The position numbers and the translations under genes were made by a program. Under the pieces are notes generated by a model that was given only the letters and a program-made list of their open reading frames with translations, did no database searches and was not told the DNA's origin. Of a stretch of DNA of 34,865 nt, positions 7,401 through 33,063 are shown in pieces. The stretch lies in the IMG/VR virus record IMGVR_UViG_3300017963_000162, positions 1-34,865 of that record. One strand, 5' to 3'. The number at the start of each line of letters is the position of its first letter. The first letter of the stretch is position 1. This stretch comes from a virus.

Positions 7401-7433
7401 CCTCGTGTTGGAAGCCTTTTAGTGGTATGGCTT
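7401..7433 (-). promoter_or_regulatory. Leader RNA element 1 (before spike operon)
   Basis: Read on the minus strand: stem arm AAGCC (7433-7429), loop ATACCACTAAAA, arm GGCTT (7416-7412), then directly CCAACACGAGG (7411-7401), whose GAGG is the ribosome binding site 6 bases before the ATG at 7394. This is the short form of the element, without an inner stem. The pairing arms differ from the other copies but still pair perfectly. A weak -35 (TTGAAG) and an A-rich -10 lie upstream. Confidence 0.75.
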
Positions 7434-7515
7434 TTATTTTTTATTTTCTTTGGAAACATTTTTTCTTCAACAAAAAAGTTTAAATGTGGTAACTTTTTAC
7501 CTAAATGAGGATAAG

Positions 7516-7704
7516 ATGAGGTATCGTCCCCGCGAGGAAGCGAAGAAAACTAAAAAAATTGTTGTGAATATCACTCCCTCTGATCATCAATTTTTAAAGG
7601 TTATTGCTGCGGATCAAGGGGTGCCGATGGGCGAATTTGTTTTAAGAGCTCTTCGACATTATTTAGGCGACATAATGAAAGAAGATAAAAAATTAGAAAG
7701 CTAA
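7516..7704 (+). CDS. Ribbon-helix-helix DNA-binding protein
   Basis: This 62-residue protein has a basic N-terminus followed by a strand-helix-helix pattern (KKIVVNITPSDHQFLKVIA, then GVPMGEFVLRALRHYL). That is typical of Arc/CopG ribbon-helix-helix repressors, which dimerise and insert the paired strands into DNA. I chose the ATG at 7516 because GAGG (7507-7510) is at good spacing; an in-frame start at 7450 has no ribosome binding site and would overlap the promoter region. It is the first gene of the plus-strand accessory operon and faces the spike operon across a 121-bp gap, so it may regulate that divergent region. Confidence 0.75.
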   Translation: MRYRPREEAKKTKKIVVNITPSDHQFLKVIAADQGVPMGEFVLRALRHYLGDIMKEDKKLES

Positions 7705-7713
7705 AAGGTAACG

Positions 7714-7917
7714 ATGGAATCTCTGTGGTGGATAGGTGAAATTTTAAAACCCATTTTAGCTGTCACTTTTGGGCTATGCTTTTCCCAATGTTTTCTTCCT
7801 CTTAAGCAAGGGTTAGAAAAAGAGGATCAAAAATTAATTAACAAAGGAAGTCTTTATTTAATTATATCTTTAGCGTCTTTATTAATTATAATATTTATAT
7901 TCGCAAAAAATAGATAA
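7714..7917 (+). CDS. Small membrane protein, two segments (holin candidate)
   Basis: This 67-residue protein has two hydrophobic segments, about residues 11-29 (ILAVTFGLCFSQCFLPL) and 43-63 (NKGSLYLIISLASLLIIIFI), separated by a charged hairpin (KQGLEKEDQK), and ends in KNR. Size and topology fit a class II holin, but no family is recognised. AAAGG lies 6 bases before the ATG, 9 bp downstream of the RHH gene, so the two are probably cotranscribed. An alternative is a small envelope protein involved in exclusion. Confidence 0.6.
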   Translation: MESLWWIGEILKPILAVTFGLCFSQCFLPLKQGLEKEDQKLINKGSLYLIISLASLLIIIFIFAKNR

Positions 7918-7953
7918 ACTTGATATTATTTCTCCTAGAAGGAGGTAAACAAA

Positions 7954-8049
7954 ATGGTAAGTTATGAAGAAATTATTTCCCTTTTCGTTGTTTGCTCTAT
8001 TGTTTGGGCTACTATTCGGTGGAATCCTGAAAGTTTCGGGAGCATCTAA
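7954..8049 (+). CDS. 31-residue membrane peptide overlapping the next gene out of frame
   Basis: GGAGG at 7941-7945 is 8 bases before this ATG, an ideal distance. It is 18 bases before the next ATG at 7964, which opens a different frame. The peptide is MVSYEEIISLFVVCSIVWAT followed by a short polar tail (RWNPESFGSI), so it has one membrane segment. Either this is the real product and the 7964 frame begins by coupling or reinitiation, or the strong site serves a 7964 start with poor spacing. Nested small membrane peptides are common in phage lysis regions. Confidence 0.4.
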   Translation: MVSYEEIISLFVVCSIVWATIRWNPESFGSI

Positions 8050-8365
8050 TTCTCTATTTGCTTTTTCTCATAGTCTAGATATTCATGCCGATGAAGAAGC
8101 TATAAAAAAAGAAGCTGAAAGACGAATGAAGGAAGAAGCCCGCGCTCGAGAAGAAGCACGATATTGGAAAGAATATCATGAACGGCAGGCAAGAGAAAAA
8201 AAAGAAAAAGAGGAAAAAGAAAGAAAACGAGCAGAAGAAGAACGTCGCAGAAAAGAAGAGGAAAGAAAAGCCTTTGAAGAAGAAAAAGCTCGTCGCGTGA
8301 AAGCCGACCAAGAAAAAATGAAACGTCAGGAAGAAGAGGCAAAAAAAAGATTTGGAAATAAGTAA
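7964..8365 (+). CDS. Membrane-anchored, highly charged coiled-coil protein
   Basis: This 133-residue protein has an N-terminal signal/anchor (about 4-22, LFPFSLFALLFGLLFGGI). A long Glu/Lys/Arg-rich helix (about 43-130) follows, with no proline, as expected for an extended coiled coil. The layout resembles an i-spanin or another periplasm-spanning rod. The N-terminus resembles that of the next gene (KKLFPF versus KKIFPF, and both LLFGG/MLGG), suggesting duplication. The start is uncertain: the good ribosome binding site fits the ATG at 7954 in another frame better. Minus-strand Phe-rich frames here are shadows of the charged helix. Confidence 0.65.
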   Translation: MKKLFPFSLFALLFGLLFGGILKVSGASNSLFAFSHSLDIHADEEAIKKEAERRMKEEARAREEARYWKEYHERQAREKKEKEEKERKRAEEERRRKEEERKAFEEEKARRVKADQEKMKRQEEEAKKRFGNK

Positions 8366-8657
8366 AAAAATCTTTCCCTTCATCTTAATTTTTTTCCTCG
8401 GAATCATGTTAGGAGGAATATTTTATGATGCTCCAGTTAAAATTAAAGAAATTCACCCTGAATGCACATGCGCTTGTCATCGCCAACATGAGGAAGAATT
8501 GAGCCAAGAATTAGCCCAATTAAAAGCTCGAAGAGATGAAGAAAGAGAATGGAAAGGCGCCCAAAGTGAGCGGATGATGAAAGAACAAGAAGAATTTTGT
8601 TCGCGACCCTTTGTAAATTTTTTAGAAGAACTTCACAAAAAAGAACATAAGATTTAA
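8352..8657 (+). CDS. Small membrane-anchored protein, TTG start (spanin-like layout)
   Basis: This 101-residue protein has one membrane segment (about 7-25, IFPFILIFFLGIMLGGIF), then a CTCACH cysteine cluster (about 38-43) and a charged helix. It overlaps the upstream gene by 14 bp, which suggests coupled translation. The TTG start has no strong ribosome binding site; a later ATG at 8407 would cut the membrane segment. The cysteine cluster just outside the membrane could form disulphides or bind metal. Overlap plus shared architecture with the upstream gene recalls overlapping spanin pairs, but no lipobox is present, so this is not a classic Rz1. Confidence 0.55.
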   Translation: MEISKKIFPFILIFFLGIMLGGIFYDAPVKIKEIHPECTCACHRQHEEELSQELAQLKARRDEEREWKGAQSERMMKEQEEFCSRPFVNFLEELHKKEHKI

Positions 8658-8658
8658 T

Positions 8659-9018
8659 ATGTTAAGAAATTTTTTGATTGTAATTATTTCGTTTCCCTTT
8701 TTCTTGCAGGCGTCTGGGAAGGAAGAATTTCTTTCAGAAATATTTTCTGGACGTCCGCAAGGAGCTATTGAATCCTTAATAAAATGGGAAAAAAATGAAC
8801 CTTCAATTAAAAAATCACTTCCTTATCTTCTTCATATTGTATATCAGCTGAAGAAAAATATTCTTTTTGGAGACCCCGATTTTATAGAAGTTTTAGAAGT
8901 CATAGATTCAACTCATCCTAGTAAAAGTTTGATTGAAGAATTGCGTGAATCTCATAAGCAAATGTGGATTTATTATTGGGTCGAAGGAGAAGAATTATTT
9001 AGAGTGGAAGAAGAATGA
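8659..9018 (+). CDS. Secreted or periplasmic protein of unknown function
   Basis: This 119-residue protein opens with a signal peptide (MLRNFLIVIISFPFFLQASG, probable cleavage after the SG/KE region). A soluble, helix-rich acidic domain follows and ends in EELFRVEEE. No enzyme motif is visible; in particular I see no muramidase or amidase signature. It begins one base after the previous stop and is the last gene of this plus-strand run. Its 3' end overlaps the opposing gene at 8973 by 46 bp. Export together with three small membrane proteins upstream fits a lysis or envelope role, but that is inference. Confidence 0.6.
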   Translation: MLRNFLIVIISFPFFLQASGKEEFLSEIFSGRPQGAIESLIKWEKNEPSIKKSLPYLLHIVYQLKKNILFGDPDFIEVLEVIDSTHPSKSLIEELRESHKQMWIYYWVEGEELFRVEEE

Positions 9019-9164
9019 GAAGAAAAAAAAGCACTTTTGAGATCCAAAATTAATTCATTTTTTTTGTTTTTAGGGAGGGATTTAAGATAACGCTCGAGAA
9101 GAATAAGCGCCTCTGGGAAGGAGATCCTTTCATCGCTCAAAATGCGATCAATAATTTCAGTCAT
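8973..9164 (-). CDS. Small hypothetical protein
   Basis: This 63-residue protein is unrecognised. Residues 1-47 are a plausible helical domain (MTEIIDRILSDERIS, then ALILLERYLKSLPKNKK). The Ser/Thr-rich C-terminal 16 residues come from sequence antisense to the end of the gene at 8659 and may be of no functional value. GGAGG lies 6 bases before the ATG, and the gene overlaps the upstream gene at 9157 by 8 bp, so the two form a coupled pair. Confidence 0.55.
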   Translation of the reverse strand: MTEIIDRILSDERISFPEALILLERYLKSLPKNKKNELILDLKSAFFSSHSSSTLNNSSPSTQ

Positions 9165-9375
9165 TCACAACCTCCCCTTCTAATAATTGAAGTACCTGAG
9201 AAATGGAATTTGACAATCCTTGAATTTTTTCTTCTTGTTCCTTCCATCGTCGGAAAAGCCCCTTCCGAAGATTACTTTGCTGTTCTTCTAGCTTCCTAAT
9301 TTTTTCTCCATGAATCCATTCTACCGTAACGCATCCTTCAAAAAGATCCATTTGATTTGAAATATCTTTTTCCAT
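9157..9375 (-). CDS. Small coiled-coil protein
   Basis: This 72-residue protein is unrecognised. The central and C-terminal part (about 20-70, with KIRKLEEQQSNLR and GLSNSISQVLQLLEG) has the heptad pattern of a coiled coil. GAGGAG precedes the ATG at good spacing. A TATAAT on the minus strand (9419-9414), overlapping the end of the recombinase gene, could supply a private promoter. It overlaps the following small gene by 8 bp. Confidence 0.55.
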   Translation of the reverse strand: MEKDISNQMDLFEGCVTVEWIHGEKIRKLEEQQSNLRKGLFRRWKEQEEKIQGLSNSISQVLQLLEGEVVND

Positions 9376-9413
9376 TATCTCCTCAAATAAAATAAGTTAA
9401 CAATTTCATAATA

Positions 9414-9419
9414 ATTATA
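9414..9419 (-). promoter_or_regulatory. Candidate -10 box for the small gene pair at 9375
   Basis: The minus strand reads TATAAT here, a perfect -10 hexamer, about 40 bases upstream of the ATG at 9375. No good -35 lies at 17 bases, so support is limited to the -10 and the position just after the recombinase coding region. Confidence 0.35.
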
Positions 9420-9986
9420 CTATTCTGAGAGTTTTTTTTCATTCTTTATATAATTAAAAAGAGTGGTTTTCCCAATTCCATACATTAATCTTATTTCTTT
9501 AAGACTTAATCTTTTTTCATTATAGATTTGTATCATACGTTTCACTTGTAACTCACTGAGTTTTTTAGGCCGTCCTCCACATCTTCCTCTCGCTCGCGCT
9601 CCTTCTAATCCTTTTTTAGTTCTTTCACGAATAAGATTTCTTTCACATTCAGCCAAAGCAGCCATTATAGAATACATCAACTTCCCTGCCGAGGTAGAGG
9701 TATCCATTGCGAGAGAGAGGACATGAATATGAATTTTTTCTTTTTCCCATTCTTCTAGCAGTTGAAGTAAAAGTCTGCTAGTTCTGCCGAGGCGATCTAA
9801 AGAGGTTATAGTCACTATATCTCCATCTCTTAAATGGCTTCTCATTTCATTAAAACCCGGACGAAGAGCTTTATTACCCGAGGCTTTATCAGTAAAAATT
9901 TTTTTGCATCCAGCTTTTTCTAAATTAGCTATTTGATTTTCAAGTGATTGATCAGGAGTAGAAACGCGAGCATACCCAAATTTCAT
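9420..9986 (-). CDS. Serine recombinase, resolvase/invertase family
   Basis: This 188-residue protein has the length of Tn3-type resolvases and Hin/Gin invertases. The catalytic serine is S9 in GYARVSTPDQS. The arginine motif TSLDRLGRTSR is at 61-71, and a helix-turn-helix fills the C-terminus (about 148-183, SLKEIRLMYGIGKTTLFNYI). It cuts and rejoins two recombination sites through a phosphoserine intermediate, either resolving multimers or inverting a segment. I found no pair of inverted fibre segments, since both spike genes lie in the same orientation. About 280 bp upstream is a 27-bp palindrome with extra half-sites that could be its target. It may resolve dimers of a circular phage or phage-plasmid. 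The ribosome binding site is weak. Confidence 0.9.
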   Translation of the reverse strand: MKFGYARVSTPDQSLENQIANLEKAGCKKIFTDKASGNKALRPGFNEMRSHLRDGDIVTITSLDRLGRTSRLLLQLLEEWEKEKIHIHVLSLAMDTSTSAGKLMYSIMAALAECERNLIRERTKKGLEGARARGRCGGRPKKLSELQVKRMIQIYNEKRLSLKEIRLMYGIGKTTLFNYIKNEKKLSE

Positions 9987-10082
9987 TTTTATTTTTTCAA
10001 TGAGTTCTTATTCTTAAAGTATACCAATATAAGTGACCTTTGATTTTAAAACCAGTTTTTAAACTTCTATTCTTCCAACTGT

Positions 10083-10095
10083 CCGGAAATTCCGG
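10083..10095. promoter_or_regulatory. 13-bp palindrome (operator-like)
   Basis: CCGGAA, A, TTCCGG is a perfect dyad about 100 bp upstream of the serine recombinase start, in otherwise AT-rich DNA. The size and symmetry suit a dimeric regulator such as the RHH protein at 7516. No second copy was found. Confidence 0.35.
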
Positions 10096-10263
10096 CCACT
10101 TCTTTTAAAGAGTCCACAAATGGGCATTTTCGGGACCGAGTGAGTTAATAATTAGTAGAAAGAAAAATGGGGTGGAAATGGAGGGACCAATCTTTTCCAT
10201 AGGAATGGTAGTTTTTTGATGGTTAATCAAGACCCCAAACAAAGACGTATGCAAAAAAAGAAA

Positions 10264-10340
10264 AAATATGCTAGCCCCTTCAACATATTCCTAAAATATG
10301 TTGAAAAAAAGGTAAAAATGCAACATATCAATATTTTATT
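10264..10340. repeat. 27-bp palindrome with extra half-sites (candidate recombination site)
   Basis: Arms TTCAACATATT (10279-10289) and AATATGTTGAA (10295-10305) are perfect reverse complements around the 5-bp spacer CCTAA. A further CAACATAT starts at 10321, followed by AATATTTTA as an imperfect partner, and AATATGCTA lies at 10265. Neither strand has a T run after the stem that would suit a terminator. A 27-bp dyad plus a second, looser dyad near a serine recombinase gene resembles subsites of a resolvase res region, or a repressor operator array. Confidence 0.5.
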
Positions 10341-10392
10341 TTAAAAAAGACTCGCAGAAGGGACTTAGAATCGCGCCGTAAGGTGTCACCGG

Positions 10393-10398
10393 TATAAT
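10393..10398 (+). promoter_or_regulatory. Candidate -10 box for the gene at 10479
   Basis: TATAAT lies 81 bases upstream of the ATG at 10479, with no good -35 at 16-18 bases. It would give a leader of about 75 nt with a small AAAGA/TCTTT hairpin. Support is the hexamer and its position only. Confidence 0.3.
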
Positions 10399-10478
10399 GT
10401 GTCTAAAAACAAAGAAATCTCTTTGATGGCGCTTTATGCTCATCTATAGTAGAATGGAAGTATAAAAAAGGTAAAAGT

Positions 10479-10730
10479 ATGGAATGGACGCAAGTTATCG
10501 TCATTTTAGGAGTCTTTGTAGGAGCTTTTCTCTACTTAGCTAACAAAATAGACTCTAATTCGAGTAAGATGGATGATATTCGAAATGATCTTACCGGTAA
10601 AGTGGATGCTCTTAGGAATGATCTTTCAAAAGAGATTCAAAAAAACAGAGAAGAAATTCTTTGGATCAAATTCCGGTTAGATCCTCATGAACATCCACAA
10701 AAGAAAGAAGAAGAAGCGAAGGAGAATTAA
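10479..10730 (+). CDS. Small membrane protein with coiled-coil tail
   Basis: This 83-residue protein has one N-terminal membrane segment (about 5-20, QVIVILGVFVGAFLYLA). A coiled-coil (about 25-65) follows with the repeat DDIRNDLTGKVDALRNDLSK, and then an acidic/lysine tail. Proteins of this layout are common beside phage lysis genes and as membrane tethers, but I cannot assign a family. AAGG precedes the ATG. It is followed 1 bp after its stop by the 28-residue membrane peptide at 10732, so the two form a small plus-strand pair facing the end of the ejection-protein gene. Confidence 0.65.
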   Translation: MEWTQVIVILGVFVGAFLYLANKIDSNSSKMDDIRNDLTGKVDALRNDLSKEIQKNREEILWIKFRLDPHEHPQKKEEEAKEN

Positions 10731-10731
10731 C

Positions 10732-10818
10732 ATGATAATGGGAGCTTTCGCCATTCTTGCAGGCATATTGATCGCATTGAATTTAACTTCGAGAAGCAAT
10801 TCGGATCTTCCTTTCTAA
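10732..10818 (+). CDS. 28-residue membrane peptide
   Basis: The peptide begins MIMGAFAILAGILIALN and ends in a short polar tail (LTSRSNSDLPF), so it has one membrane segment. AAGGAG lies 7 bases before the ATG, and the gene follows directly on the previous stop. Its TAA overlaps the stop codon of the opposing ejection-protein gene at 10815 by a few bases. Single-span peptides of this size act as pinholin, antiholin or lysis-control peptides in some phages; the role here is unknown. Confidence 0.5.
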   Translation: MIMGAFAILAGILIALNLTSRSNSDLPF

Positions 10819-18566: not shown

Positions 18567-18926
18567 CTACGCTGCAAAGGTTTGTTTCATCTGAAAGCGA
18601 GACTTTTCTCCCACTTTTTTCTTATCCATTCTTCCAGATCCATCCGGTTTCCAATCCCAAATAGGGGTGGTGCATTGCTCTAAATGACGAGCCACAAAGC
18701 GGGGAACCGGGTATTTACCCCCGTGGAAAAAATGGAAAGTAAAATGGTTTTTTGTATCTCCCATCGTCCACTTATGAGAAAGACCAGGTTCTTCAAGGTT
18801 ATTGAATTCAAATTCGCATACCTCTCTCAGAAACTTCTCTTCCTTCTCATTCGCAGGTTGTTTTCCTGTAATGGGGAGCTGTTGAATTTTTTCTATATTT
18901 TCTTGTATTGAACCTCTTGAGCTCAT
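18567..18926 (-). CDS. Unknown head/neck-associated protein
   Basis: This 119-residue protein is not recognised. The N-terminus is helical and charged (SIQENIEKIQQL). The middle is rich in His, Phe and Trp (SHKWTMGDTKNHFTFHFFHG, then RFVARHLEQC), and the C-terminus is basic. It is the first gene of the tail operon, downstream of a strong terminator and of leader element 2, whose GAGG is its ribosome binding site 6 bases before the ATG. Position between the coat/decoration genes and the neck gene suggests a head-completion function, which is inference. Confidence 0.6.
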   Translation of the reverse strand: MSSRGSIQENIEKIQQLPITGKQPANEKEEKFLREVCEFEFNNLEEPGLSHKWTMGDTKNHFTFHFFHGGKYPVPRFVARHLEQCTTPIWDWKPDGSGRMDKKKVGEKSRFQMKQTFAA

Positions 18927-18932
18927 GTTTTA

Positions 18933-18976
18933 CCTCGTGTTGGTTTCTCTTCTGCCTAAGCAGGTGGTATTGAGAA
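18933..18976 (-). promoter_or_regulatory. Leader RNA element 2 (before tail operon)
   Basis: Minus strand: outer arm TTCTC (18976-18972), A, then ATACCAC, inner stem CTGC/GCAG around TTAG, AA, outer arm GAGAA, A, then CCAACACGAGG (18943-18933) with the gene start 6 bases later. The hairpin begins within the T tract of the terminator at 18975-19005, so no ordinary promoter fits between them. The RNA must come from read-through, processing or an unusual promoter. Confidence 0.8.
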
Positions 18977-19631: not shown

Positions 19632-20573
19632 TTATGAATGGGTTGACATTAGGTTCAACATAAAGGCATCATTCAAGATTCGAGCAACGAAAGGATGTTG
19701 CCATCCTACGGATCCTCTTTGATGAAGGGGATCGGCGGATCCTGCCGAACCAAGAGGTTCGATATAGAAATCGCCAGTTTCGCTGCGCAAATGAACGAGG
19801 GCGTATGCTTCTTTACCCACAATAAAATTGTTGTAGACCGCAGGAGTAGCGCTAGATACTGATCCCACCGATGTATAAAGCCATCGGACGTTTCCAGTAG
19901 AGCCCCATTCTGCATCTAAAACAGTTCCTTGTTGGGCATAATTACTTGTGTTCAAGAAGTTAGAAACAGCTTCTAGATCATCTAGAAGGTCCGTATCTAA
20001 GTATCCCCAGAACGCAGGGCGAACAGGAGAAGTACCAAGAGCATCACGTCCGGTTACTACTTCAGAAATCATTTCTGCGTCGTTTCCAAGAAGTGTTTTT
20101 ACTGCTGCATCAATATCTTCTTTAGTAAGTTCAGTCGGAGTATTTCCGTTTGAACCATTAGAACACTGAAGAACTGAGCTTGTAGAAGCCAGAACATCTC
20201 TAGTGACTTCATCCATAGTTTGAGCCATGTTTTGAGCCAATAGACGTGCGGATTCATTGAGAACCCTATCTTCTACAGTCAATTCAACTTGGTTAGTGAT
20301 AGTTACAAAGTTTCCATAGAAAGAAACTCTTGCTTTAATATCTGTCGCACTTAAAGGTGCTCCGGGAGGAGTCACCCCATCTGTAAGTGGGATAGGCACC
20401 GTGGCAAGACGTGAATATCTACGGAACACAATAGTGTCACCATTCTTTTCGGGAAGAACACGTTTCTGAGCAAACTTGTTGTAGATCAACGTTGGATACG
20501 CAGTCATCAACAGAAGTCTGTCATAGTATTCCCGAACAGCTGGAGGTAGGACACTTACGGTTGTAATAGTCAT
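19632..20573 (-). CDS. Major capsid protein, N4 gp56 family
   Basis: This 313-residue protein starts MTITTVSVLPPAVREYYDRL. The pattern YYDRLLLMTAYPTLIYNKFA, KNGDTIVFRRYSRL, VPIPLTDGVTPPG, YGNFVTITNQVEL and MAQTMDEVTRDVLAS is characteristic of N4 gp56-type coat proteins with the HK97 fold. Many copies build the icosahedral head. Codon use and the strong initiation signal agree with high expression. The scaffold gene is just upstream. Leader element 3, the best-formed copy, ends in the GAGG 5 bases before the ATG. Confidence 0.92.
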   Translation of the reverse strand: MTITTVSVLPPAVREYYDRLLLMTAYPTLIYNKFAQKRVLPEKNGDTIVFRRYSRLATVPIPLTDGVTPPGAPLSATDIKARVSFYGNFVTITNQVELTVEDRVLNESARLLAQNMAQTMDEVTRDVLASTSSVLQCSNGSNGNTPTELTKEDIDAAVKTLLGNDAEMISEVVTGRDALGTSPVRPAFWGYLDTDLLDDLEAVSNFLNTSNYAQQGTVLDAEWGSTGNVRWLYTSVGSVSSATPAVYNNFIVGKEAYALVHLRSETGDFYIEPLGSAGSADPLHQRGSVGWQHPFVARILNDAFMLNLMSTHS

Positions 20574-20578: not shown

Positions 20579-20625
20579 CCTCGTGTTGGTTTGCTCATTC
20601 CCAGTTTCCTGGGGTGGTATTGAGC
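20579..20625 (-). promoter_or_regulatory. Leader RNA element 3 (before coat gene), best-formed copy
   Basis: Minus strand: outer arm GCTCA (20625-20621), internal-loop side ATACCAC, inner stem CCCAG/CTGGG capped by the tetraloop GAAA, opposite side AA, outer arm TGAGC (20597-20593), AAA, then CCAACACGAGG (20589-20579). The start codon follows after 5 bases. Only 10 bp separate the hairpin from the scaffold stop, leaving no clear promoter. The GNRA loop and asymmetric conserved internal loop look like a protein- or RNA-binding motif. Confidence 0.85.
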
Positions 20626-22062: not shown

Positions 22063-24150
22063 TTAAACCTCCAAAGGGTTTGGCGTTTCTACTGTCTCTT
22101 CTTGAAGCACACCTTCAACAAGAGGATTTGCGTGAGGAGCCCCTTCGGGTTGACCTCGTGCGCTGATTAAGACATCGTCTTCTTTAATTTGTTCTTCTTT
22201 CACCCGATTCATTTCTTCCATCATTCGGACGATTCCCAGATATTTCACTAAGCGATCATCATCGAGGGAAGCCAGCTCTTTCATGGCTCTCGCTCTATCA
22301 AGAGAAGCGGAAGCGCGATCATCGACAGCCCGAGCCGCCCTCTCATCTTCTAATCCCATATTGGCAATAGCCCTAGTAAAGCGTTCTTTTGAAAGGGCAA
22401 TATCCGAAATCGCTTTGGCCTGTTTGGATTGGCGATCGGAATCAATAAGAGAAGCTTGTAATTGTTGGGCTTGCTGAGCTTGCTGGGCCTGTTGCTGCTC
22501 CTCTTCTTGGAGCTGCTGAAGATATTCGGTTTTTCCTTGAATAGGCGCTGCTTGGGCGAGCATTGCCCCGGAAACGGGAGCCCCCACTTGCTTGAGATCG
22601 AGAAGCTGGCGGAAGTACATTTGTTTTTGAGTACCCGTTAGCATTCCTTCTTGAATGCTAACGTCATACTTAATAAAATCTTTGGTATAGAATTGCTGAG
22701 ATGGGGCTCTATTCAGAATTCTTTGTATCTTTTGGGGTGTCCAGTTCTGCATCATTTTGATGCATTTTCGAGCTGCCTGTTTTTGTGCAAATCGCAGGTT
22801 TTCGAAAAGATCCTGTAAATTTACCAGGGATGCCCCTTGCCTGAGCATCATCATGATGCCCGACTCTTGATCGTTCTGAGTCATCCCAAAAGATGCATCG
22901 TTTATCCCCACAGACGAAAGAATATCTGCATCAAATTGACGTTGGAGCTCAAACATGCTAGGTGGAATTTGAGCAGGAGGAATCTTTTCGATAGCCCCAG
23001 GCTTCGCGTCTCTGTCTCTCCAGATGACTTTCCCTTGGCTCGTTTGAAAAAGAGAGCGTGGATTAATAACCGATTCTTCATCCGCAATCCATCCTGAGTT
23101 GATTTGAGAATCGAGAATATCTACCATTTGGGATCGGCGCCTATTCGATTCACGCTGGGGGTCTACTTGGGGGCGTACGAGGGACTGAACTTTGATTCCC
23201 CAATTTTCCGACTCTGGTTCAAAGATCCCTACAAAAGGAACGAACGGATATTCATTCAGACCAAATTGGTTAATCTCGGTCTTCATATAGTTATTATTTA
23301 GAATGATGTGGCATTCAATATATCGTTGAGGACGCATGACTTTTTTAAGCTGCGGATATTGCTGCATAAAAAATTTCATCCCCTCTTGCGTTCCTTCCCA
23401 TTCAACAAATTCCCCTGTTTCTTCATCGACAAGCATGGGAACTTGCTTCCATTTCTGCTGGTAGAATTCATCGTAAGCAATAAAATCTTGTCCATTAGGC
23501 TGAGTTTGGTAAGGAAGCCAAGTAAATTTGTCATCCCTAGACCATCCAAAGGAATGAATCTCAAAAACCTCTTTTTCCATGCCCGGAAGAAGGGAAGCAG
23601 CTTGCTCAGGACTGAGATACTTTCTTCTCATGACGTAGGAACAGTCAGAGAAATCTAATTGGGTGAAATAAGGATCGGTAATAAATCCACTGTAAGGCTC
23701 CCTTCCAAAACGAATATCTCCATTGACAGGATCATCTCTATAATCCATCCACATTGTAAGGAGATTAAATCCTGTTTTTAGCGCTCCTCCAAAGGAATTG
23801 CTAATATGACGATACCCTTCTCCCGTATCAAATGCATAAAGGAGTAAATCGGTGAGGTCATCTGCTGATTGTTGGTCCCCATTTTCCCTTGGCTGGACGA
23901 TAGGACTTAACTGATGCTGGATATGATAACCCAGGATCATGTTGATATTTTTGCGAATTAGATTGTAGGTGAATGCATTGCGATTTTCTTGGAATAGTTT
24001 TTGACGCTCCTTTTCATCCCATTGCTCTCCTAGATAGAATCTTAAATCTCTATCGGCTAAGGGATAGAAAGGATTCCAAGCATAATAGGCTTCTTGGTAG
24101 TAGTCGTTATATTCATTGACTATCGATAATCCGTTATAAACAGTCGACAT
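22063..24150 (-). CDS. Portal protein, P22-like
   Basis: This 695-residue protein forms the ring at the unique vertex through which DNA enters and leaves. The N-terminal half follows the P22-type portal pattern: RFYLGEQWDEKERQKL, NAFTYNLIRKNINMILGYHI, then LLLYAFDTGEGYRHISNSFG and GFNLLTMWMDYR. The last about 190 residues include a Gln-rich helix (about 525-560), like the barrel of P22 gp1, and a charged end. I chose the ATG at 24150 because GAGAG lies 5 bases upstream; a GTG two codons earlier at 24156 is possible. It heads the portal-scaffold unit, after a long structured leader. Confidence 0.88.
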   Translation of the reverse strand: MSTVYNGLSIVNEYNDYYQEAYYAWNPFYPLADRDLRFYLGEQWDEKERQKLFQENRNAFTYNLIRKNINMILGYHIQHQLSPIVQPRENGDQQSADDLTDLLLYAFDTGEGYRHISNSFGGALKTGFNLLTMWMDYRDDPVNGDIRFGREPYSGFITDPYFTQLDFSDCSYVMRRKYLSPEQAASLLPGMEKEVFEIHSFGWSRDDKFTWLPYQTQPNGQDFIAYDEFYQQKWKQVPMLVDEETGEFVEWEGTQEGMKFFMQQYPQLKKVMRPQRYIECHIILNNNYMKTEINQFGLNEYPFVPFVGIFEPESENWGIKVQSLVRPQVDPQRESNRRRSQMVDILDSQINSGWIADEESVINPRSLFQTSQGKVIWRDRDAKPGAIEKIPPAQIPPSMFELQRQFDADILSSVGINDASFGMTQNDQESGIMMMLRQGASLVNLQDLFENLRFAQKQAARKCIKMMQNWTPQKIQRILNRAPSQQFYTKDFIKYDVSIQEGMLTGTQKQMYFRQLLDLKQVGAPVSGAMLAQAAPIQGKTEYLQQLQEEEQQQAQQAQQAQQLQASLIDSDRQSKQAKAISDIALSKERFTRAIANMGLEDERAARAVDDRASASLDRARAMKELASLDDDRLVKYLGIVRMMEEMNRVKEEQIKEDDVLISARGQPEGAPHANPLVEGVLQEETVETPNPLEV

Positions 24151-24159
24151 TCGCACTCT

Positions 24160-24225
24160 CTAAGTTGGTTCTTTCACCGTATTGAAAGTGCGAGGCCGAT
24201 GATACGGCATCGAAGGAGGGATCAA
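24160..24225 (-). CDS. Possible 21-codon leader ORF upstream of portal
   Basis: In leader element 4, GCGAGG is followed 7 bases later by TTG, opening a 21-codon frame (LIPPSMPYHRPRTFNTVKEP, then T, TAG) that stops 9 bases before the portal ATG. If translated, it would couple the element to the portal start and disrupt the leader hairpins. The TTG start and lack of similarity make this a weak call. Confidence 0.22.
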   Translation of the reverse strand: MIPPSMPYHRPRTFNTVKEPT

Positions 24226-24238
24226 CTCCAAGCCTCGC
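24190..24238 (-). promoter_or_regulatory. Leader stem downstream of element 4
   Basis: Minus strand: GCGAGGC (24238-24232) can pair perfectly with GCCTCGC (24196-24190). Inside lies a second hairpin, CGATG/CATCG (arms 24212-24208 and 24201-24197). The first arm contains the GAGG that in elements 1-3 is the ribosome binding site, so in the portal leader that site would be buried. Confidence 0.5.
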
Positions 24239-24279
24239 GTGTTGGTTTTAAGTGGCTCCCTCAAGGGGTGGTATAGCCA
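24238..24279 (-). promoter_or_regulatory. Leader RNA element 4 (before portal unit)
   Basis: Minus strand: outer arm TGGCT (24279-24275), ATACCAC, inner stem CCC/GGG around TTGA, outer arm AGCCA (24257-24253), CTTAAAA, then CCAACACG (24245-24238) and CGAGG. Unlike elements 1-3, the start codon is about 80 nt downstream. The 94 bp between this element and the gene at 24374 show no convincing promoter; on the plus strand they hold a weak ACTGG/CCAGT hairpin followed by T. Confidence 0.78.
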
Positions 24280-27379: not shown

Positions 27380-27382
27380 TTC

Positions 27383-28318: not shown

Positions 28319-28587
28319 TAAAATTTTACCCTCCTTTCTTCTCGATCTCTTTCTAGAGTGATTTTAGTATCTGTCTCAATACAAGAAGGAGTAGCGCAGA
28401 ACCACACCTTATGCTCATAATCTCGGCAGGTATACCCTTCCGTATTGCCGCAATCCTGACAGGTCATCTCATCAGAGCTCACTTTGACTGGGTAAACCGT
28501 TTTTCTTCCTCTGCGCAATAGACCATCCACTAACATAGGCTCGTGTTGAGGAGAAAGTGGTTTTAAAATTTCTGTTATCTGTCTCAC
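28318..28587 (-). CDS. Small zinc-ribbon protein, GTG start
   Basis: This 89-residue protein has C43/C46 (MTCQDCGNTEGYTCRDYEHK, with another Cys at 54) and C64/C69 (VWFCATPSCIET), consistent with a zinc ribbon. The rest is basic. GTG start overlaps the stop of the ParB-like gene (GTGA). Three zinc-ribbon genes occur in this operon (also 27383 and 26949). The function is unknown. Confidence 0.6.
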   Translation of the reverse strand: MRQITEILKPLSPQHEPMLVDGLLRRGRKTVYPVKVSSDEMTCQDCGNTEGYTCRDYEHKVWFCATPSCIETDTKITLERDREERRVKF

Positions 28588-29102
28588 TTTATTTTAACCT
28601 TGTAACTCGCAGTGTTGTACTTAGATATCACCGCGGCAATATCCACTTCTGCTTCCCGAAGATCGTCTTCATTTTCAAACTTTGCATTGAGAGAAAAACT
28701 TTTGGGTTTATTTTCTTCTTCAATTACATCCAAATGAAGCTCTTCAGGAGTAAAACCACTTTCGAGTAAAAGATCGACTTCCCAGAGATTGGCCAACATA
28801 TCGTCATCCCAACTTCCCTGGTTTTTGTTAAGGCGGATTGTGAGCTCTTTAGCCTCTGATTCTGACAAAGGCTCTTGGGGTACGTAAACGTCGATACGTT
28901 TTTGTCCCATTTTTTTGAGTACTCTAACCCTTTGATGACCCCCGATAATCGTTCCATCCGGCTGGATAACGACGGGCTCACACTGCCCAAACTTACGAAG
29001 CGACTTTTTAAGCTCTTCGCCCTGTTTCTTTGATAGGCGTCTGGGGTTATCGGGATTTTCATGGAGATTACGGATCTCCCAAACTTCGTGTTGCCAGTTC
29101 AT
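28584..29102 (-). CDS. ParB/sulfiredoxin-fold nuclease-like protein
   Basis: This is a 172-residue protein. Residues about 10-68 show the ParB N-terminal fold: NPDNPRRLS (17-24), LKKSLRKFGQCEPVVIQ (31-47) and the nucleotide-binding GGHQR (54-58). In phages such domains, often called ParB-like nucleases, occur alone or fused to DNA methyltransferases; here no methylase follows. The middle (about 80-125) resembles the helical linker of those fusions, and the last 45 residues are acidic and then basic. It is the first gene of the terminase unit. Its ribosome binding site (AGGG) lies inside the 3' arm of leader element 5, so folding could hide it. Confidence 0.8.
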   Translation of the reverse strand: MNWQHEVWEIRNLHENPDNPRRLSKKQGEELKKSLRKFGQCEPVVIQPDGTIIGGHQRVRVLKKMGQKRIDVYVPQEPLSESEAKELTIRLNKNQGSWDDDMLANLWEVDLLLESGFTPEELHLDVIEEENKPKSFSLNAKFENEDDLREAEVDIAAVISKYNTASYKVKIK

Positions 29103-29104
29103 TT

Positions 29105-29125
29105 AACCCTAAAGTGGTATGGGTT
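29105..29125 (-). promoter_or_regulatory. Leader RNA element 5 (before ParB-like gene), short form
   Basis: Minus strand: arm AACCC (29125-29121), loop ATACCACTTTA, arm GGGTT (29109-29105), then AAATG. The only possible ribosome binding site (AGGG) is in the 3' arm. The conserved CAACACGA follows at 29093-29086, inside codons 4-6 of the gene. The transcript predicted from the promoter at 29133-29141 starts at about 29126, so the hairpin would be the exact 5' end of the mRNA. Confidence 0.75.
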
Positions 29126-29132
29126 TATCTTA

Positions 29133-29141
29133 ACTATAACA
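29133..29141 (-). promoter_or_regulatory. Extended -10 promoter for the ParB/terminase unit
   Basis: The minus strand reads TGT TATAGT (29141-29133), an extended -10. No strong -35 is present; upstream is A-rich. Start of transcription would be near 29126, one base before leader element 5. The same ATGTTATA core occurs in the promoter before element 7 on the other strand. Confidence 0.55.
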
Positions 29142-29154
29142 TATAAGAGTTTTT

Positions 29155-29376
29155 TTATTTTGGAGGCTCTTTCTCCTCCTCTTTGACTGCTTCTTTTTGA
29201 AGAAAATAGCAGTTAACATTTTCCATATTGGCCCAAAATATGCCCGGACCATCGGCATCTTCGTAAGGTTTTCCTTCTCGGATGCACTCGAGCAGGCGCT
29301 CCTTTTCATCAGCAGGGATTCTTACATCAATGGGGTTTTGCATTTCTTTAAAACAAAAACGAGCAATCAGACTCAT
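29155..29376 (-). CDS. Small hypothetical protein
   Basis: This 73-residue protein is unrecognised. It starts MSLIARFCFKEMQNPIDVRI, has a middle DEKERLLECIREGKPYED and an acidic/lysine tail. It overlaps the gene at 29348 by 29 bp, and GGAG/AAGGAG precedes the ATG. It is the last gene of the replication unit, before the promoter of the ParB unit. Confidence 0.55.
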   Translation of the reverse strand: MSLIARFCFKEMQNPIDVRIPADEKERLLECIREGKPYEDADGPGIFWANMENVNCYFLQKEAVKEEEKEPPK

Positions 29377-29662
29377 TGTTTTCTTCTCCTTGAGTTACTT
29401 GGATTTTTTTGTTTATTGCTTCTTTGACTTGCTCCACAAAATGTTTTTCGTGGTCACGGTTTTCAAATCTAAAGTAAGGAAGCCACTCCTTTTTTCCTTC
29501 TTTCTCATAGCTTTTAGAAGGGAAGTTGATCCATCTCTTTCCCTCTTTTTCATGAAGGGAGAGTGAATAAAAGACCATTCCAAACTTGGGGACTCGGACA
29601 TCAGCAAATCCTCTTAAGGTTCCTTTTTCGTAGGGAGTAAATTTAATGCATTCGACTGTCAT
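29348..29662 (-). CDS. SpoVG-like small protein
   Basis: This is a 104-residue protein. The pattern GTLRGFADVRVPKFGMVFYS, EKEGKRWINFPSKSYEKEGK and FVEQVKEAINKK follows the SpoVG-like fold common in small phage proteins close to recombination and replication genes: strand, LRGFADV, an xGKRWxxxPSK block and a C-terminal helix. SpoVG proteins bind nucleic acid. ATG overlaps the upstream gene's stop by 4 bp. The assignment rests on pattern only. Confidence 0.55.
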   Translation of the reverse strand: MTVECIKFTPYEKGTLRGFADVRVPKFGMVFYSLSLHEKEGKRWINFPSKSYEKEGKKEWLPYFRFENRDHEKHFVEQVKEAINKKIQVTQGEENNESDCSFLF

Positions 29663-29910
29663 TTTTTCTTTCCTTTCCCCATTTGTTTAAGTACTGGATG
29701 CTCTCCTCGAATCAAGAGGCTTACCAGTTCAATCACTTCGTCTTCTTTTTTCTTTAAATCCTCTTTTCCTTCTACAGGAACCATCGACTTCACCAGTAAA
29801 TGAAGAAGCATTCCTAGTGCTGTCGCCGCATCGCCGGGTTGATCTTTTCCCACTCTTTTTTCAAATACTTTCATCATTTCGTCTAAAATCTCACTTACAT
29901 TATTCATCAT
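29659..29910 (-). CDS. Small helical protein
   Basis: This is an 83-residue protein. I chose the ATG at 29910 because it overlaps the upstream stop (ATGATGA); the frame can be extended to a TTG at 29955, which has no ribosome binding site. Helices cover about 1-35 (NNVSEILDEMMKVFEKRVGK) and 36-75 (AATALGMLLHLLVKSMV), with a Lys-rich end. It is similar in size and style to the upstream gene at 29907, so the two may be diverged duplicates. The function is unknown. Confidence 0.55.
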   Translation of the reverse strand: MMNNVSEILDEMMKVFEKRVGKDQPGDAATALGMLLHLLVKSMVPVEGKEDLKKKEDEVIELVSLLIRGEHPVLKQMGKGKKK

Positions 29911-30128
29911 CCATCCGCCGGGCTTGGTCCAAAATGGATTTCTTCTCTTTCCCAAGCTTCCTCCATAGTCCGATTTATCATTTCCATGAATTGATTTTTC
30001 TCCAACTCAAAATGAGTGAGGCCAATATTCACCGCCACATTCATAAGTCCAGTAAACATTTGATGTGGAGGAACTTTTTCTTTAAAAGTTTCCACTAACC
30101 TAATAATTGTTTTTTCAAATTCAGTCAT
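29907..30128 (-). CDS. Small helical protein
   Basis: This is a 73-residue protein: helices about 3-20 (EFEKTIIRLVETFKEKV), 22-40 (HQMFTGLMNVAVNIGLTH) and 43-60 (EKNQFMEMINRTMEEAWE). It lies between the zinc-ribbon gene at 30150 and the gene at 29659, with which its stop overlaps. The ribosome binding site is weak (GGAAAAAG). No family is recognised. Confidence 0.55.
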   Translation of the reverse strand: MTEFEKTIIRLVETFKEKVPPHQMFTGLMNVAVNIGLTHFELEKNQFMEMINRTMEEAWEREEIHFGPSPADG

Positions 30129-30149
30129 TTCTTTTTCCTTTTGACCTTC

Positions 30150-30431
30150 TTAACTTTTTTTGGCAACTTTTTTCCTTTTGGCGTGTGGCGTTCGAACTCC
30201 TTGGCGACTTCCGGATCCTTTGCGTAGAGAAACTTCCTCTGAGCTTGACTCTTGAAGGGCATTTTCAATCTCCTTTTTACTTTCCATCAATTTTATTTTT
30301 TTTCGATCCTCAGAATTTACCCACGCATCTTCTTGGGGTAGGTTGATAAATCCCCGTTGACATCCTAAGCAAATCCCTGTCGAATTAACCTGACACAGCC
30401 CTGAGCAACTACCGCAATTCATGAACTTCAT
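30150..30431 (-). CDS. Zinc-ribbon protein with basic tail
   Basis: This 93-residue protein has a Cys cluster at the start (C6, C9, C13 in MNCGSCSGLC and C21/C24 in GICLGCQRG), typical of a treble-clef or ribbon zinc site. A charged helix (EDRKKIKLMESKKEIENALQ) and a Lys/Arg-rich end follow. ATG overlaps the upstream stop by 4 bp. Probably binds nucleic acid; the function is unknown. Confidence 0.6.
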   Translation of the reverse strand: MKFMNCGSCSGLCQVNSTGICLGCQRGFINLPQEDAWVNSEDRKKIKLMESKKEIENALQESSSEEVSLRKGSGSRQGVRTPHAKRKKVAKKS

Positions 30432-30640
30432 GCTACTTTTCTTCCTCTCAAGTCATCCATAAAAAGAATGTCGAGAAAATGGAACGCTGGAACACGGACC
30501 CTTTCTCCATTTTCATAAAAAGAAAGAGTCCACCCCCATTCGGGACATTCATATAGCCTTCCTAATTTTCCATTGAAATAGGCCATGGGGCGCTCAGTTT
30601 TGGGCATTTCTTTGCCAAATCTTCTCCATCCTAAGAACAT
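30428..30640 (-). CDS. Small hypothetical protein
   Basis: This is a 70-residue protein, aromatic and beta-rich in the middle (MAYFNGKLGRLYECPEWGWT, then FYENGERVRVPAFHFLDILF). It overlaps the RusA gene by 10 bp and the next gene by 4 bp. No ribosome binding site of note is seen; it probably depends on coupling. No family is recognised. Confidence 0.5.
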   Translation of the reverse strand: MFLGWRRFGKEMPKTERPMAYFNGKLGRLYECPEWGWTLSFYENGERVRVPAFHFLDILFMDDLRGRKVA

Positions 30641-31227
30641 TTTTCTCCATATATTTCATGCAATCCAGCGTCTAAACAAATATCTTGAATAGTGGACGCT
30701 AAATAAGCGGTTTCGTGGGCATCAAAGTTTTTTTCATACTTTACAGCTACCTCATAAATTTCACATAGACCCTGATGGAAATTAACCGCAGCACTTCCGA
30801 GCATTTCTATTTCATCCAGAAGCGACATATTGTGAGGGATAATTCCGATTTCAACGCGCCCTTCATAGTCCCATACTTTTTCGAAATACCCTTGAGAGAC
30901 GTATCGATCGTCTTTATACGCTATCCCATTCAGGACATCCATGTACCACTTAATGTAGTTGTCAATATCTGGTTTGGAAGTAACGGGAGTACCTAAAAGC
31001 TCTTTTTTGCGCTTCTGAGACCATGATTTAGGCATAGGTACATAAACTCTCATTGAAAAGCAAATAGGCGATTCTAGGCCTATTTCTGGGCTTTGCGAGC
31101 GCTTCTGAGCGGCTGCTTCCCATTTATAAGCGAGTGATTGAGTCTTTTGAGGGTTGTGAACTTTCCCTTTGGCTCCAAAACGAGGCCGTTGCTTAGCTTC
31201 GGGTTTGTAGTTAAAAACAAATTTCAT
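30631..31227 (-). CDS. rusA: RusA-like Holliday junction resolvase with C-terminal extension
   Basis: This is a 198-residue protein. Residues 1-130 follow RusA: KPEAKQRPRFGAKGKVHNP at the start, VYVPMPKSWSQKRKKELLG, then the acidic core KPDIDNYIKWYMDVLNGIAY (catalytic D87/D89 and K93) and KDDRYV (D106, D107). RusA cuts four-way junctions symmetrically and removes branches before packaging. Known RusA proteins are about 120 residues. The extra about 68 residues here (from SLLDEIEML to the end) are helical and unlike the family, possibly a fused partner. It follows the initiator gene in the replication unit. Confidence 0.88.
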   Translation of the reverse strand: MKFVFNYKPEAKQRPRFGAKGKVHNPQKTQSLAYKWEAAAQKRSQSPEIGLESPICFSMRVYVPMPKSWSQKRKKELLGTPVTSKPDIDNYIKWYMDVLNGIAYKDDRYVSQGYFEKVWDYEGRVEIGIIPHNMSLLDEIEMLGSAAVNFHQGLCEIYEVAVKYEKNFDAHETAYLASTIQDICLDAGLHEIYGEKCS

Positions 31228-31268
31228 TTCAATATCCGGTTTTATTTTTCTTTACCCATAAAAATTTT

Positions 31269-32192
31269 TTAAGTCAAATATTGAAACATATTCATTTTAC
31301 GGAGCTTATGCTCGAGGAGGCTTTGAAATCCCTTTTCTTCATACTTAATGACCTCCTTATTGGGATGATCTGAATGACCTATTTCGACATATTTCGAACA
31401 GCAATCCATTCGAAAGGTCCTAGGAATAGATTTGGAAAAAAGAATGGTGCGAAGCTTCTCGGCTCCTTCTTTGTGTTTTTTGAAAACGTCTTCTTTAGCG
31501 ATAGTGGGATTAAAATTTTTCTCCCGACGAGCCCAGTTCAATATGGTGGCTTTGTAATTCTTTTTGGATTTCCCGTTTTCCTCCAGCCATGCATCCACCG
31601 CGTTCACCAGGTCCGTGAGACGATCTTTACCGAGCCTTTTCTCTAAATCGTCGTAATCTTCTTGAGAAAGCTTCACTCTTTGAAATTCTCCAAAAGAAAT
31701 TTTTTGTGGGGAAGGAGCGACAGCGACTGACTTCTGAGAGGGTGCCGGCATCTTTTGTATCTCTTTAGAGATCTTTTTATTCATATTTCTATTATTAGTA
31801 TTTCTATTATTAGATTGCTCACTGGTGACTATTCCGACTTCTCGCTGGTGAGTATTCGGACTACTCACTGATGAGTATTCGTAAACTTTTTTTGAAAAGG
31901 CATTCGTCACATAGATATGACGTACCTTTTTCATTCCATTGAGGAATGTTTTTCTAACGATGTATTCTTCTTTTTCCAGAAATACTAAATCCCTCTGAAG
32001 GGTGGGAACAGAGCAACCTAATTTTTCTGATAGGAACTTGTCCGTTCCCCAACAATATCCTTCTTTGTGAGACAGACCAATAAGATTGATCATTAATATT
32101 TTTTGGGAATTAGAAAGATTCTTATCTTCGAGAAGAGCTGCAGGGATTCCAATGGTGTAGGAAAAAATTGGAGTTTCGTTTTCTTTACTCAT
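31269..32192 (-). CDS. Replication initiator / replisome organiser (O-like, DnaD-like)
   Basis: This is a 307-residue protein. N-terminal winged helix (about 20-95: NLSNSQKILMINLIGLSHKE, LSEKLGCSVPTLQRDLVFLE), a linker (100-165), then a DnaD-like C-terminal motif (about 175-223: LSQEDYDDLEKRLG, and NYKATILNWARRE with Y213, I217, W220), as in Firmicute and proteobacterial phage replisome organisers. Such proteins bind the origin and load the host helicase. The linker is where the DNA iterons and AT-rich repeats lie (31785-31886), as in lambda O. No helicase or loader is encoded nearby, so host factors must be recruited. ATG overlaps the upstream stop. Confidence 0.85.
   Translation of the reverse strand: MSKENETPIFSYTIGIPAALLEDKNLSNSQKILMINLIGLSHKEGYCWGTDKFLSEKLGCSVPTLQRDLVFLEKEEYIVRKTFLNGMKKVRHIYVTNAFSKKVYEYSSVSSPNTHQREVGIVTSEQSNNRNTNNRNMNKKISKEIQKMPAPSQKSVAVAPSPQKISFGEFQRVKLSQEDYDDLEKRLGKDRLTDLVNAVDAWLEENGKSKKNYKATILNWARREKNFNPTIAKEDVFKKHKEGAEKLRTILFSKSIPRTFRMDCCSKYVEIGHSDHPNKEVIKYEEKGFQSLLEHKLRKMNMFQYLT
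31785..31886. other. Replication origin: iterons and AT-rich repeats inside the initiator gene
   Basis: Three direct repeats of 23 bp lie head to tail (31818-31840, 31841-31863, 31864-31886), each with the core CTCxCTGxTGAxTATTC. Next to them are two perfect 14-of-15-bp AT-rich repeats (31785-31799 and 31800-31814, ATTTCTATTATTAG). The 23-bp period is not a multiple of three, so the copies encode different peptides and selection must act on the DNA. The arrangement of initiator-binding iterons beside an unwinding region within the initiator gene is that of lambda ori. Confidence 0.85.
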
Positions 32193-32419
32193 TCTATTAC
32201 CCCCACATCTGCAAGTTCTGCAAGAAGGTGTGATAATTTTTCTGAGGAAAGGTCAAGAAGATTCATTAAAAAATGAAAGTCCCCTTCTCCTTCATCCAAG
32301 GATTCGAGTACTCCATATAGCCCCCGAGCCGAAAGAGATAGGTTTGAACAAAGGAAAATTTCTTTTTTTAATAGGATGCAGGGGTTGTTTTTATTGTGAC
32401 AGGTGCGTATAATAGCCAT
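32189..32419 (-). CDS. Winged-helix protein, replication-associated
   Basis: This is a 76-residue protein. The pattern NLSLSARGLYGVLESLDEGE, then LDLSSEKLSHLLAELADVGV, fits a small winged helix of the type found at the N-terminus of phage replication proteins. I chose the ATG at 32419 (GCGAG upstream) over an in-frame TTG at 32431. Its stop overlaps the initiator start. It may help the initiator bind, or regulate the unit. The upstream 290 bp are non-coding and hold leader element 6. Confidence 0.65.
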   Translation of the reverse strand: MAIIRTCHNKNNPCILLKKEIFLCSNLSLSARGLYGVLESLDEGEGDFHFLMNLLDLSSEKLSHLLAELADVGVIE

Positions 32420-32712
32420 ATTAACTCGCAAATTTGTAAATGGCTACCTCCACTTCCCCAAGCTTCTGTGGCCATTTTTTTGTTTATATTCTTTTTACCT
32501 CTTCCCTAATTTTTGAGGGTTTGGTATGGTTCCAATCATCTCATCTGAGGACGCGGCTGCGAAATCGGGAACCCTCATTCTGAAGGAAAGGGGATTTTTT
32601 TGATTTTCCTTCCGCACGCCCTGAGGTGGGTCTCCAAACCGAGTGTTGGAAGGAGAGTCTGCTGTGGTATGTGGGCTCTCCACTTTGTCAATACAAAAAT
32701 TTTGCATAAAAG
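32420..32712 (-). other. Long structured leader of the replication unit
   Basis: I see no gene here. From the minus strand it contains leader element 6 (32681-32643), the sequence TTGGAGACCCA shared with element 7, and a hairpin of 8 bp (arms GAAGGAAA 32612-32605 and TTTCCTTC 32589-32582, 15-nt loop). A 70-codon open frame across it (32707-32495) runs through the element and has no ribosome binding site, so I do not call it. Confidence 0.6.
32643..32681 (-). promoter_or_regulatory. Leader RNA element 6 (before replication unit)
   Basis: Minus strand: arm GGAGAG (32681-32676), CCCAC, ATACCAC, AGCAGA, arm CTCTCC (32657-32652), TT, then CCAACAC (32649-32643). The stem is 6 bp; no inner stem is obvious. 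A possible -35 TTAACT and -10 TATTGA 17 bp apart would start the RNA at the base of the stem. After the element, CCAACACTC, three bases and TTGGAGACCCA are repeated near element 7. Confidence 0.75.
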
Positions 32713-32961
32713 TTAATCTTTATTTTGAAGTTTGTGCTTATATTTTTGGCGCCGTCTATGGGTTCGCTGGTCATAATCTACTGCGGCTTTCCCCTTTAAA
32801 TAAAAAATGTGTTCCCATTTATCACAGAATTTTTCTGCATCTTCTTTGGAATGAAAAGAGGCACAAAATCTTTCTTTACCATCATCAGTTACTCGACAAA
32901 ATTGGACTATCCAAATTTCTTTTCCGGTTGCGGGGTATTTTTTTTTACCAATCCAAGCCAT
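32713..32961 (-). CDS. Stand-alone integrase arm-binding (AP2-like) domain protein
   Basis: This is an 82-residue protein. The pattern MAWIGKKKYPATGKEIWIVQ, FCRVTDDGKERFCASFHSKE and DAEKFCDKW is that of the three-stranded AP2-like N-terminal domain that tyrosine integrases use to bind arm sites. A basic helix (about 58-80, DYDQRTHRRRQKYKHK) follows and no catalytic domain. It could be a small DNA-binding regulator or a remnant of an integrase. AAAGGAG lies 4 bases before the ATG. It stands between leader elements 6 and 7, which share an inverted sequence, so it is well placed to control both units. Confidence 0.6.
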   Translation of the reverse strand: MAWIGKKKYPATGKEIWIVQFCRVTDDGKERFCASFHSKEDAEKFCDKWEHIFYLKGKAAVDYDQRTHRRRQKYKHKLQNKD

Positions 32962-33009
32962 TTTGCTCCTTTAAATGAAAAAAGTATGGAATTAAATTAC
33001 GCTCCCATG

Positions 33010-33028
33010 TTATATTCTGGAATTATAA
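33010..33028. promoter_or_regulatory. Dyad-symmetric promoter/operator of the recombination operon
   Basis: The plus strand reads TGT TATATT at 33008-33016, an extended -10 like that at 29133-29141. The surrounding TTATATTC, TG, GAATTATAA (33010-33028) is a near-perfect dyad, so a dimeric regulator could cover the -10 and the start. Transcription would begin near 33023, just before leader element 7. Confidence 0.5.
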
Positions 33029-33063
33029 ATCTCAACATGGAAATGTAGAGATAGAACCAACAC
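33029..33063 (+). promoter_or_regulatory. Leader RNA element 7 (variant, before recombination operon)
   Basis: Plus strand: outer arm ATCTC (33029-33033), A, inner stem ACAT/ATGT capped by GGAA (a GNRA-type loop), A, outer arm GAGAT (33048-33052), AGAA, then CCAACAC (33057-33063). The internal loop lacks ATACCAC; this heptamer instead occurs at 33087-33093, just after the start codon of the gene at 33082. After CCAACAC comes TC, AAA, TTGGAGACCCA as near element 6; its GGAG is the ribosome binding site 7 bases before the ATG. Confidence 0.65.

Follow-up and report, generated by a model that had tools for sequence, protein, structure and literature searches.

A recurrent, covarying hairpin element as a possible bipartite translational operator in a phage family

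The virus record IMGVR_UViG_3300017963_000162 of IMG/VR is a phage sequence of 34,865 nucleotides (34.9 kb), analyzed here over its whole length and called the window. It carries seven short sites, most of them 5' of genes, at which a hairpin is accompanied by a CAACAC tail. This raises the question of what such a recurrent element does and what reads it. A sequence-only reading had placed the sites at the start of seven transcription units and proposed a regulator-binding site, put-like antitermination, or a role in 5'-end processing or stability. The comparison with relatives suggests, at about even confidence, that the element is a bipartite translational operator common to many early and late genes of one family of tailed, uncultivated phages.

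All seven sites lie where that reading had put them (Table 1); the stems differ, every one pairs perfectly, and the tetraloops it named are present. The window has 13 copies of ATACCAC and 8 of CCAACAC, where 1.7 and 1.65 are expected, respectively, and none of 100 shuffles reaches either count. A 5-bp Watson-Crick hairpin with ATACCAC and a CAACAC no more than 20 nt away is found six times, and never in 500 dinucleotide shuffles. The remaining site (33029, plus strand) is a related but rearranged one: its hairpin lacks ACCAC and is followed by CCAACAC, GGAG, ATG, and ATACCAC (at 33087), and its ortholog in the relative G001 reads ACAACACGAAATCGGAGAACCACGATG. The downstream gene (33082-33408, plus strand), which carries this linear element, encodes an acidic 108-amino-acid protein and is kept in most relatives as the first gene of the rightward early operon. 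The description of a hairpin followed by (C)CAACAC needs qualifying at 29125, where the stem is followed after 2 nt by the ATG with no Shine-Dalgarno (SD) sequence, and where CAACAC, as part of CAACACG, lies 12 nt beyond the stem and inside the open reading frame (ORF). Likewise, the proposed association with transcription starts holds in part. A -10-like TGTTATAGT stands just 5' of the stem at 29125, as it does in its relatives; site 20625, by contrast, starts about 11 nt downstream of the preceding ORF, and site 18976 comes directly after a terminator-like hairpin (19001-18985). A consensus promoter scan gave no excess over shuffles.

Relatives of the window phage, of which IMG/VR holds about 150, define the constant parts of the element: AACCAC on a hairpin with a variable stem, and ACACG directly 5' of the SD. 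The tail is better described as ACACG plus SD, the hairpin proves dispensable, and the motif differs between phages, three points that go beyond the initial description. Two relatives with a capsid protein 97% identical to that of the window phage, G001 (L084/L085) and G003 (L086/L087), have copies at the same genes that read GAACCAC for ATACCAC and mostly ACAACAC for CCAACAC; G002 has AAACCAC and AAAACAC. In L004 (97% identity), the capsid gene is without the element and a neighboring gene has one. In more distant members it is seen mainly 5' of early genes and of the portal, fibre, and scaffold-position genes, and its tail reads (C)TACACG(C/T)GAGG. Counterparts of element 6 occur in G004, G006, G010, G019, G030, G032, and G036. 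Across 649 gene-upstream regions, GAACCAC is found 43 times in sense against 3 times in antisense orientation and once reversed. A scan of 2.9 million viral contigs with the pattern GAACCACN{8,30}TACACGCGAGG, in which no stem was required, returned 12 matches. Eleven of these belong to the window's family, and all 11 have a hairpin by inspection, including the new stems AGCGTT/AACGCT, AGTGCT/AGCACT, and CTGTG/CACAG. At E values up to 5, a covariance model, which the sequence-only reading had called for, matched 57 times in the element-bearing clade (37 sources) and 4 times, once strongly, in other family members (16 sources), a split assigned by us from the scans. Elements 1 and 4 score 27.8 and 30.3 bits, respectively. 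The window has no Rfam (release 15) match at the gathering threshold, and neither it nor L077 shows anything relevant when the limit is relaxed to E = 1.

Pairing is maintained while the stem sequence drifts. A structure descriptor found 41 matches against 3 in reversed genomes. Of 49 sites chosen by sequence alone, 35 reach a stem score of at least 5; with permuted 5' flanks, 11.7 do so on average and 19 at most. Because the inner stem varies in length, a MAFFT alignment of all copies put the 3' arm in the wrong place; covariation was therefore assessed by permutation and on a subset that aligns without gaps. In this gap-free alignment of ten copies, 50 of 50 cells are paired and 16 show double changes, a count that none of 500 shuffles reached (4.6 expected). 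Each stem position shows all four Watson-Crick pairs among 36 curated copies, a list selected on pairing in which only the pair diversity is informative. Individual orthologs illustrate the pattern. Element 1 has the stem AGCCT/AGGCT in G001 and G003, element 2 has TTCTCC/GGAGAA with a covarying inner stem in the same two phages, the inner stems of element 3 are wholly different in G001, G003, and G002, and many relatives have other, still paired stems at the place of element 4. These data support the view that the element is a selected RNA structure, as first proposed from the window. In predicted ensembles, both half-sites (ACCAC and CAACAC) are mostly unpaired and SD exposure varies; sequestration is thus not consistent in these predictions, and an SD-sequestering switch was rejected.

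Early genes use a second layout, ACACG-SD-AACCAC-N-ATG, which has no hairpin and occurs at operon-internal genes as well. Within the family, 12 SD-preceded ATGs have AACCAC beside them, where A3C3 hexamers as a whole average 2.4; the seven members classed as lacking the hairpin element have none. The sites of a phage tend to share a single variant: ATACCAC at 6 of 6 sites in the window, TACCAC at 3 of 3 in G036, and AACCAA at all six sites of G030, including its two linear ones. Among 68 hand-listed sites from 16 genomes, 129 of 146 within-genome pairs are identical, and the maximum over 20,000 shuffles is 115. Paralogous sites are alike inside a genome and orthologous sites unlike between genomes, as would be expected of one trans factor with changing specificity. 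Because this concerted variation spans both layouts, the hairpin and linear forms are treated as one system. The pattern suggests that one trans-acting, probably phage-encoded factor reads all sites of a phage. The earlier proposal of a binding site for a phage regulator gains support from this result and from the family-specific distribution of the element.

In the operator that we favor, half-site A would be a single-stranded AACCAC (ATACCAC in the window phage) and half-site B the ACACG that immediately precedes the SD. The hairpin form would use its variable stem to fold away the RNA in between, so that A is exposed in a loop or bulge close to B and the SD, and the linear form used by early genes would have A between the SD and the AUG. 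A single factor acting in trans, probably an RNA-binding protein of the phage, would bind A plus B and thereby control how ribosomes reach the first genes of early and late transcripts as well as some genes inside operons. Sequence comparison shows that both motifs exist, that pairing is under selection, that the element is spread through the family, that its variants change in concert within genomes, and that it stands at the SD. That the factor is a protein, that control acts on translation, and that both halves are bound simultaneously, we infer. Translational control is favored because the motifs flank the SD and start codon, because some copies are operon-internal, and because the ATG of the ParB-like gene directly follows a hairpin without an SD. 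Activation appears slightly more likely than repression, since that gene carries the element with no SD and since early, replication, and late structural genes carry it alike.

Several observations weigh against this operator. In many relatives, helix P1 of the adjoining RNA described below takes up the GCGAGG tail of the portal leader, and the start codon follows about 85 nt later; B therefore does not always adjoin an SD. The early leftward copy stands about 250 nt from a gene. Across all IMG/VR, the linear string is generic and not specific to the window's family; it was rejected as a family signature, and the claim for the linear form is accordingly limited to the inside of the family. Finally, the comparison of gene presence and absence with that of the element found no gene with an exactly matching distribution, and no factor is therefore assigned.

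The main rival, which we regard as unlikely, is antitermination of the put or nut type, in which the nascent hairpin with ACACG would bind RNA polymerase, alone or with a phage factor, close to where each transcript starts, and suppress termination. HK022 put and lambda nut RNAs are also hairpins in early phage leaders, repeated in the genome. Several copies here lie just 3' of -10-like sequences, early leaders and late transcripts both have a copy, and the early leftward leader of element 6 has a second hairpin 3' of its tail, recalling the two-stem put sites of HK022 (PMC9378689); the other sites have none. Unlike put or nut, however, the element abuts the SD or start codon, occurs at operon-internal and late genes, and exists in a hairpin-free form whose AACCAC between the SD and ATG of operon-internal genes would be superfluous for a transcription element. 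The same hairpin-free form, found at operon-internal early genes, also disfavors plain 5'-end protection. A hairpin that protects the mRNA 5' end, or a cleavage mark that separates transcripts, would suit copies at or near likely 5' ends and element 2 behind its terminator-like hairpin, but such a role needs neither an invariant ACCAC and ACACG nor their concerted change, and we judge it quite improbable.

Pairing of the half-sites with another RNA, either 16S rRNA or a phage small RNA, is very improbable. AACCAC and CAACACGAG would have short complementarity to conserved stretches of 16S rRNA. That match would be lost in phages with the variants ATACCAC and AACCAA and with the tail TACACGCGAGG, and 16S pairing was set aside for this reason. 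A small-RNA partner also found no support, as no conserved non-coding complement of each phage's own motif was seen, save the antisense of the elements themselves. Least credible of all is a DNA-level site, such as a protein-binding site, a recombination site, or a single-stranded hairpin promoter, or else a mobile repeat. The element does recur on both strands, but its orientation always matches that of the gene's transcript (43 against 3), and it adjoins the SD and ATG. Its stem sequences vary freely while pairing is kept, so the sites are not copies of a repeat.

A comparison limited to open-access papers places the closest parallels to the favored translational operator in T4-like phages. 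The gene 43 (DNA polymerase) operator of T4 and RB69 likewise consists of an upstream hairpin and a sequence overlapping the ribosome-binding site (RBS), read together by a phage protein (PMC3014915). There, a single gene is autoregulated, whereas here many genes carry ACCAC and ACACG in interchangeable hairpin and linear layouts. No DNA polymerase match was found among the searched proteins, contrary to what polymerase autoregulation predicts. T4 RegA is one phage factor that acts on about 30 mRNAs at the initiation region (PMC3014915), and its operators resemble the linear form; RegA sites lack a clear consensus or structure, while the motif here is sharp and usually displayed on a covarying hairpin. 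No RegA homologue was found. The window family shows the same motif at the initiation region of several genes, as in a RegA-like regulon, and conserves both the hairpin and the RBS-adjacent sequence across phages, as in the gene 43 type. Its nearest parallel is, in our favored comparison, the gene 43 operator architecture used as a RegA-like regulon. Element-bearing genes include those for capsid, portal, fibre, ParB-like, and replication proteins, besides genes of no assigned function.

The factor is probably encoded by the phage, because Chlamydiota genomes, the possible host group, do not use the pattern. Only candidates can be named (Table 1). For the SpoVG-fold protein, two of 14 homologues have a Pfam SpoVG match (best E 6.4e-8), and the AlphaFold model (predicted local distance difference test score, pLDDT, 86.6) has SpoVG structures as all of its top eight PDB matches. 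The protein occurs in 22 of 26 genomes, including some in which the element is missing. Listeria SpoVG has been reported as an RNA-binding protein (PMC4959528). The phage protein shares the SpoVG fold and is only a candidate; its acidic, PF-type C-terminus resembles that of single-stranded DNA-binding proteins (SSBs) and hints at a DNA role. It is kept as a lead because T4 gp32, an SSB, is also a translational repressor (PMC535899).

Table 1. Positions of the seven elements, the adjoining portal-leader RNA, and the candidate factor genes in the window
Feature	Coordinates	Strand	Context	Sequence or structure
Element 1	7401..7433	-	Leader of tail-fibre gene (4488-7394)	AAGCC/GGCTT, ATACCAC, tail CCAACACGAGG (SD)
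Element 2	18933..18976	-	Leader of 119-amino-acid gene (18567-18926)	TTCTC/GAGAA, inner CTGC-TTAG-GCAG, tail CCAACACGAGG
Element 3	20579..20625	-	Leader of major capsid gene (19632-20573), operon-internal	GCTCA/TGAGC, inner CCCAG-GAAA-CTGGG
Element 4	24233..24279	-	Leader of portal gene (22063-24156)	TGGCT/AGCCA, inner CCC-TTGA-GGG, tail CCAACACGCGAGG
Element 5	29088..29125	-	ParB-like gene (28584-29102)	AACCC/GGGTT with ATACCAC
Element 6	32643..32681	-	Early leftward leader, ~250 nt before replication genes	GGAGAG/CTCTCC, ATACCAC, tail CCAACAC
Element 7	33029..33093	+	Leader of first rightward early gene (33082-33408)	Rearranged (linear) form
Second structured RNA	24171..24238	-	Portal leader	P1 enclosing P2 and P3, then P4; P4 loop kisses P3 loop
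SpoVG-fold protein, 104 amino acids	29348..29662	-	Candidate nucleic-acid-binding factor	
Small Zn-finger protein	30150..30431	-	In many relatives; candidate only	CxxC...CxxC, basic tail

The portal leader holds a second structured RNA directly 3' of element 4, adjacent to it and treated as separate. Its helices, parsed by hand, form a three-way junction of P1 with P2 and P3, followed by P4. Six bases of the P3 loop pair with the P4 loop in 18 of 19 phages despite 10 distinct P3 loop sequences, and none of 5000 shuffles matches this. The P2 loop always contains a 4-8-base palindrome (TGATCA, TAGCTA, TAATTA), and RNAalifold supports P1-P3, with double changes in 11 of 13 pairs. This RNA is present in the portal leaders of most relatives, including phages without the AACCAC element. 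It has no Rfam match and is apparently undescribed so far. Its loop design beside packaging genes is reminiscent of the phi29 pRNA, but the phages here have an ordinary terminase. In the portal leaders of L080, L095, L120, L123, and L127, a further conserved stretch 5' of the hairpin (GAGGGAATCT ... TGTAGG ... GCTAGC ... CCGCCCCTC) looks like another structured RNA. A strongly conserved outer stem, TAGTGCCGCCGAC ... CGGGCG, surrounds an AACCAC hairpin 5' of the scaffold-position gene of many relatives (e.g., L045 9271, L096 9269).

The window proteins include a P22-like portal, a phrog_1357 major capsid protein, a terminase, RecT, a RecE-like protein, RusA, a ParB-like protein, and tail fibres. 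All INPHARED matches to the capsid protein fall below 33% identity, and no annotated relative was found there. A GTDB genome scan identified a single relative, the 36-kb contig L096 (JAAKFB010000001.1), which is binned in a Chlamydiae metagenome-assembled genome, has the window phage's capsid gene (85% identical), and probably represents another phage of the family. This contig, together with capsid homologues in 3 of 116 Chlamydiota genomes, makes a Chlamydiota host possible. In those 116 genomes, the element pattern shows no excess over control, and a host-encoded element was dropped.

RNA-level regulons that span many phage genes have seldom been seen, and the best-known case, T4 RegA, has no clear motif. 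The motif described here is sharp, recurs in many genomes in hairpin and linear forms, and includes natural specificity switches; the factor and the direction of control are thus directly testable by swapping variants between phages. The operator would also add a regulatory system to what is known of a phage family that is widespread, for which no isolate was found, and that may infect Chlamydiota. A bolder form of the idea, which we hold to be doubtful, is that the family tags its own early and late mRNAs with a bipartite RNA address by which a phage-encoded factor directs ribosomes to phage transcripts. If so, ATACCAC, AACCAC, and AACCAA would be phage-specific codes, and co-infecting relatives would each read their own messages only.

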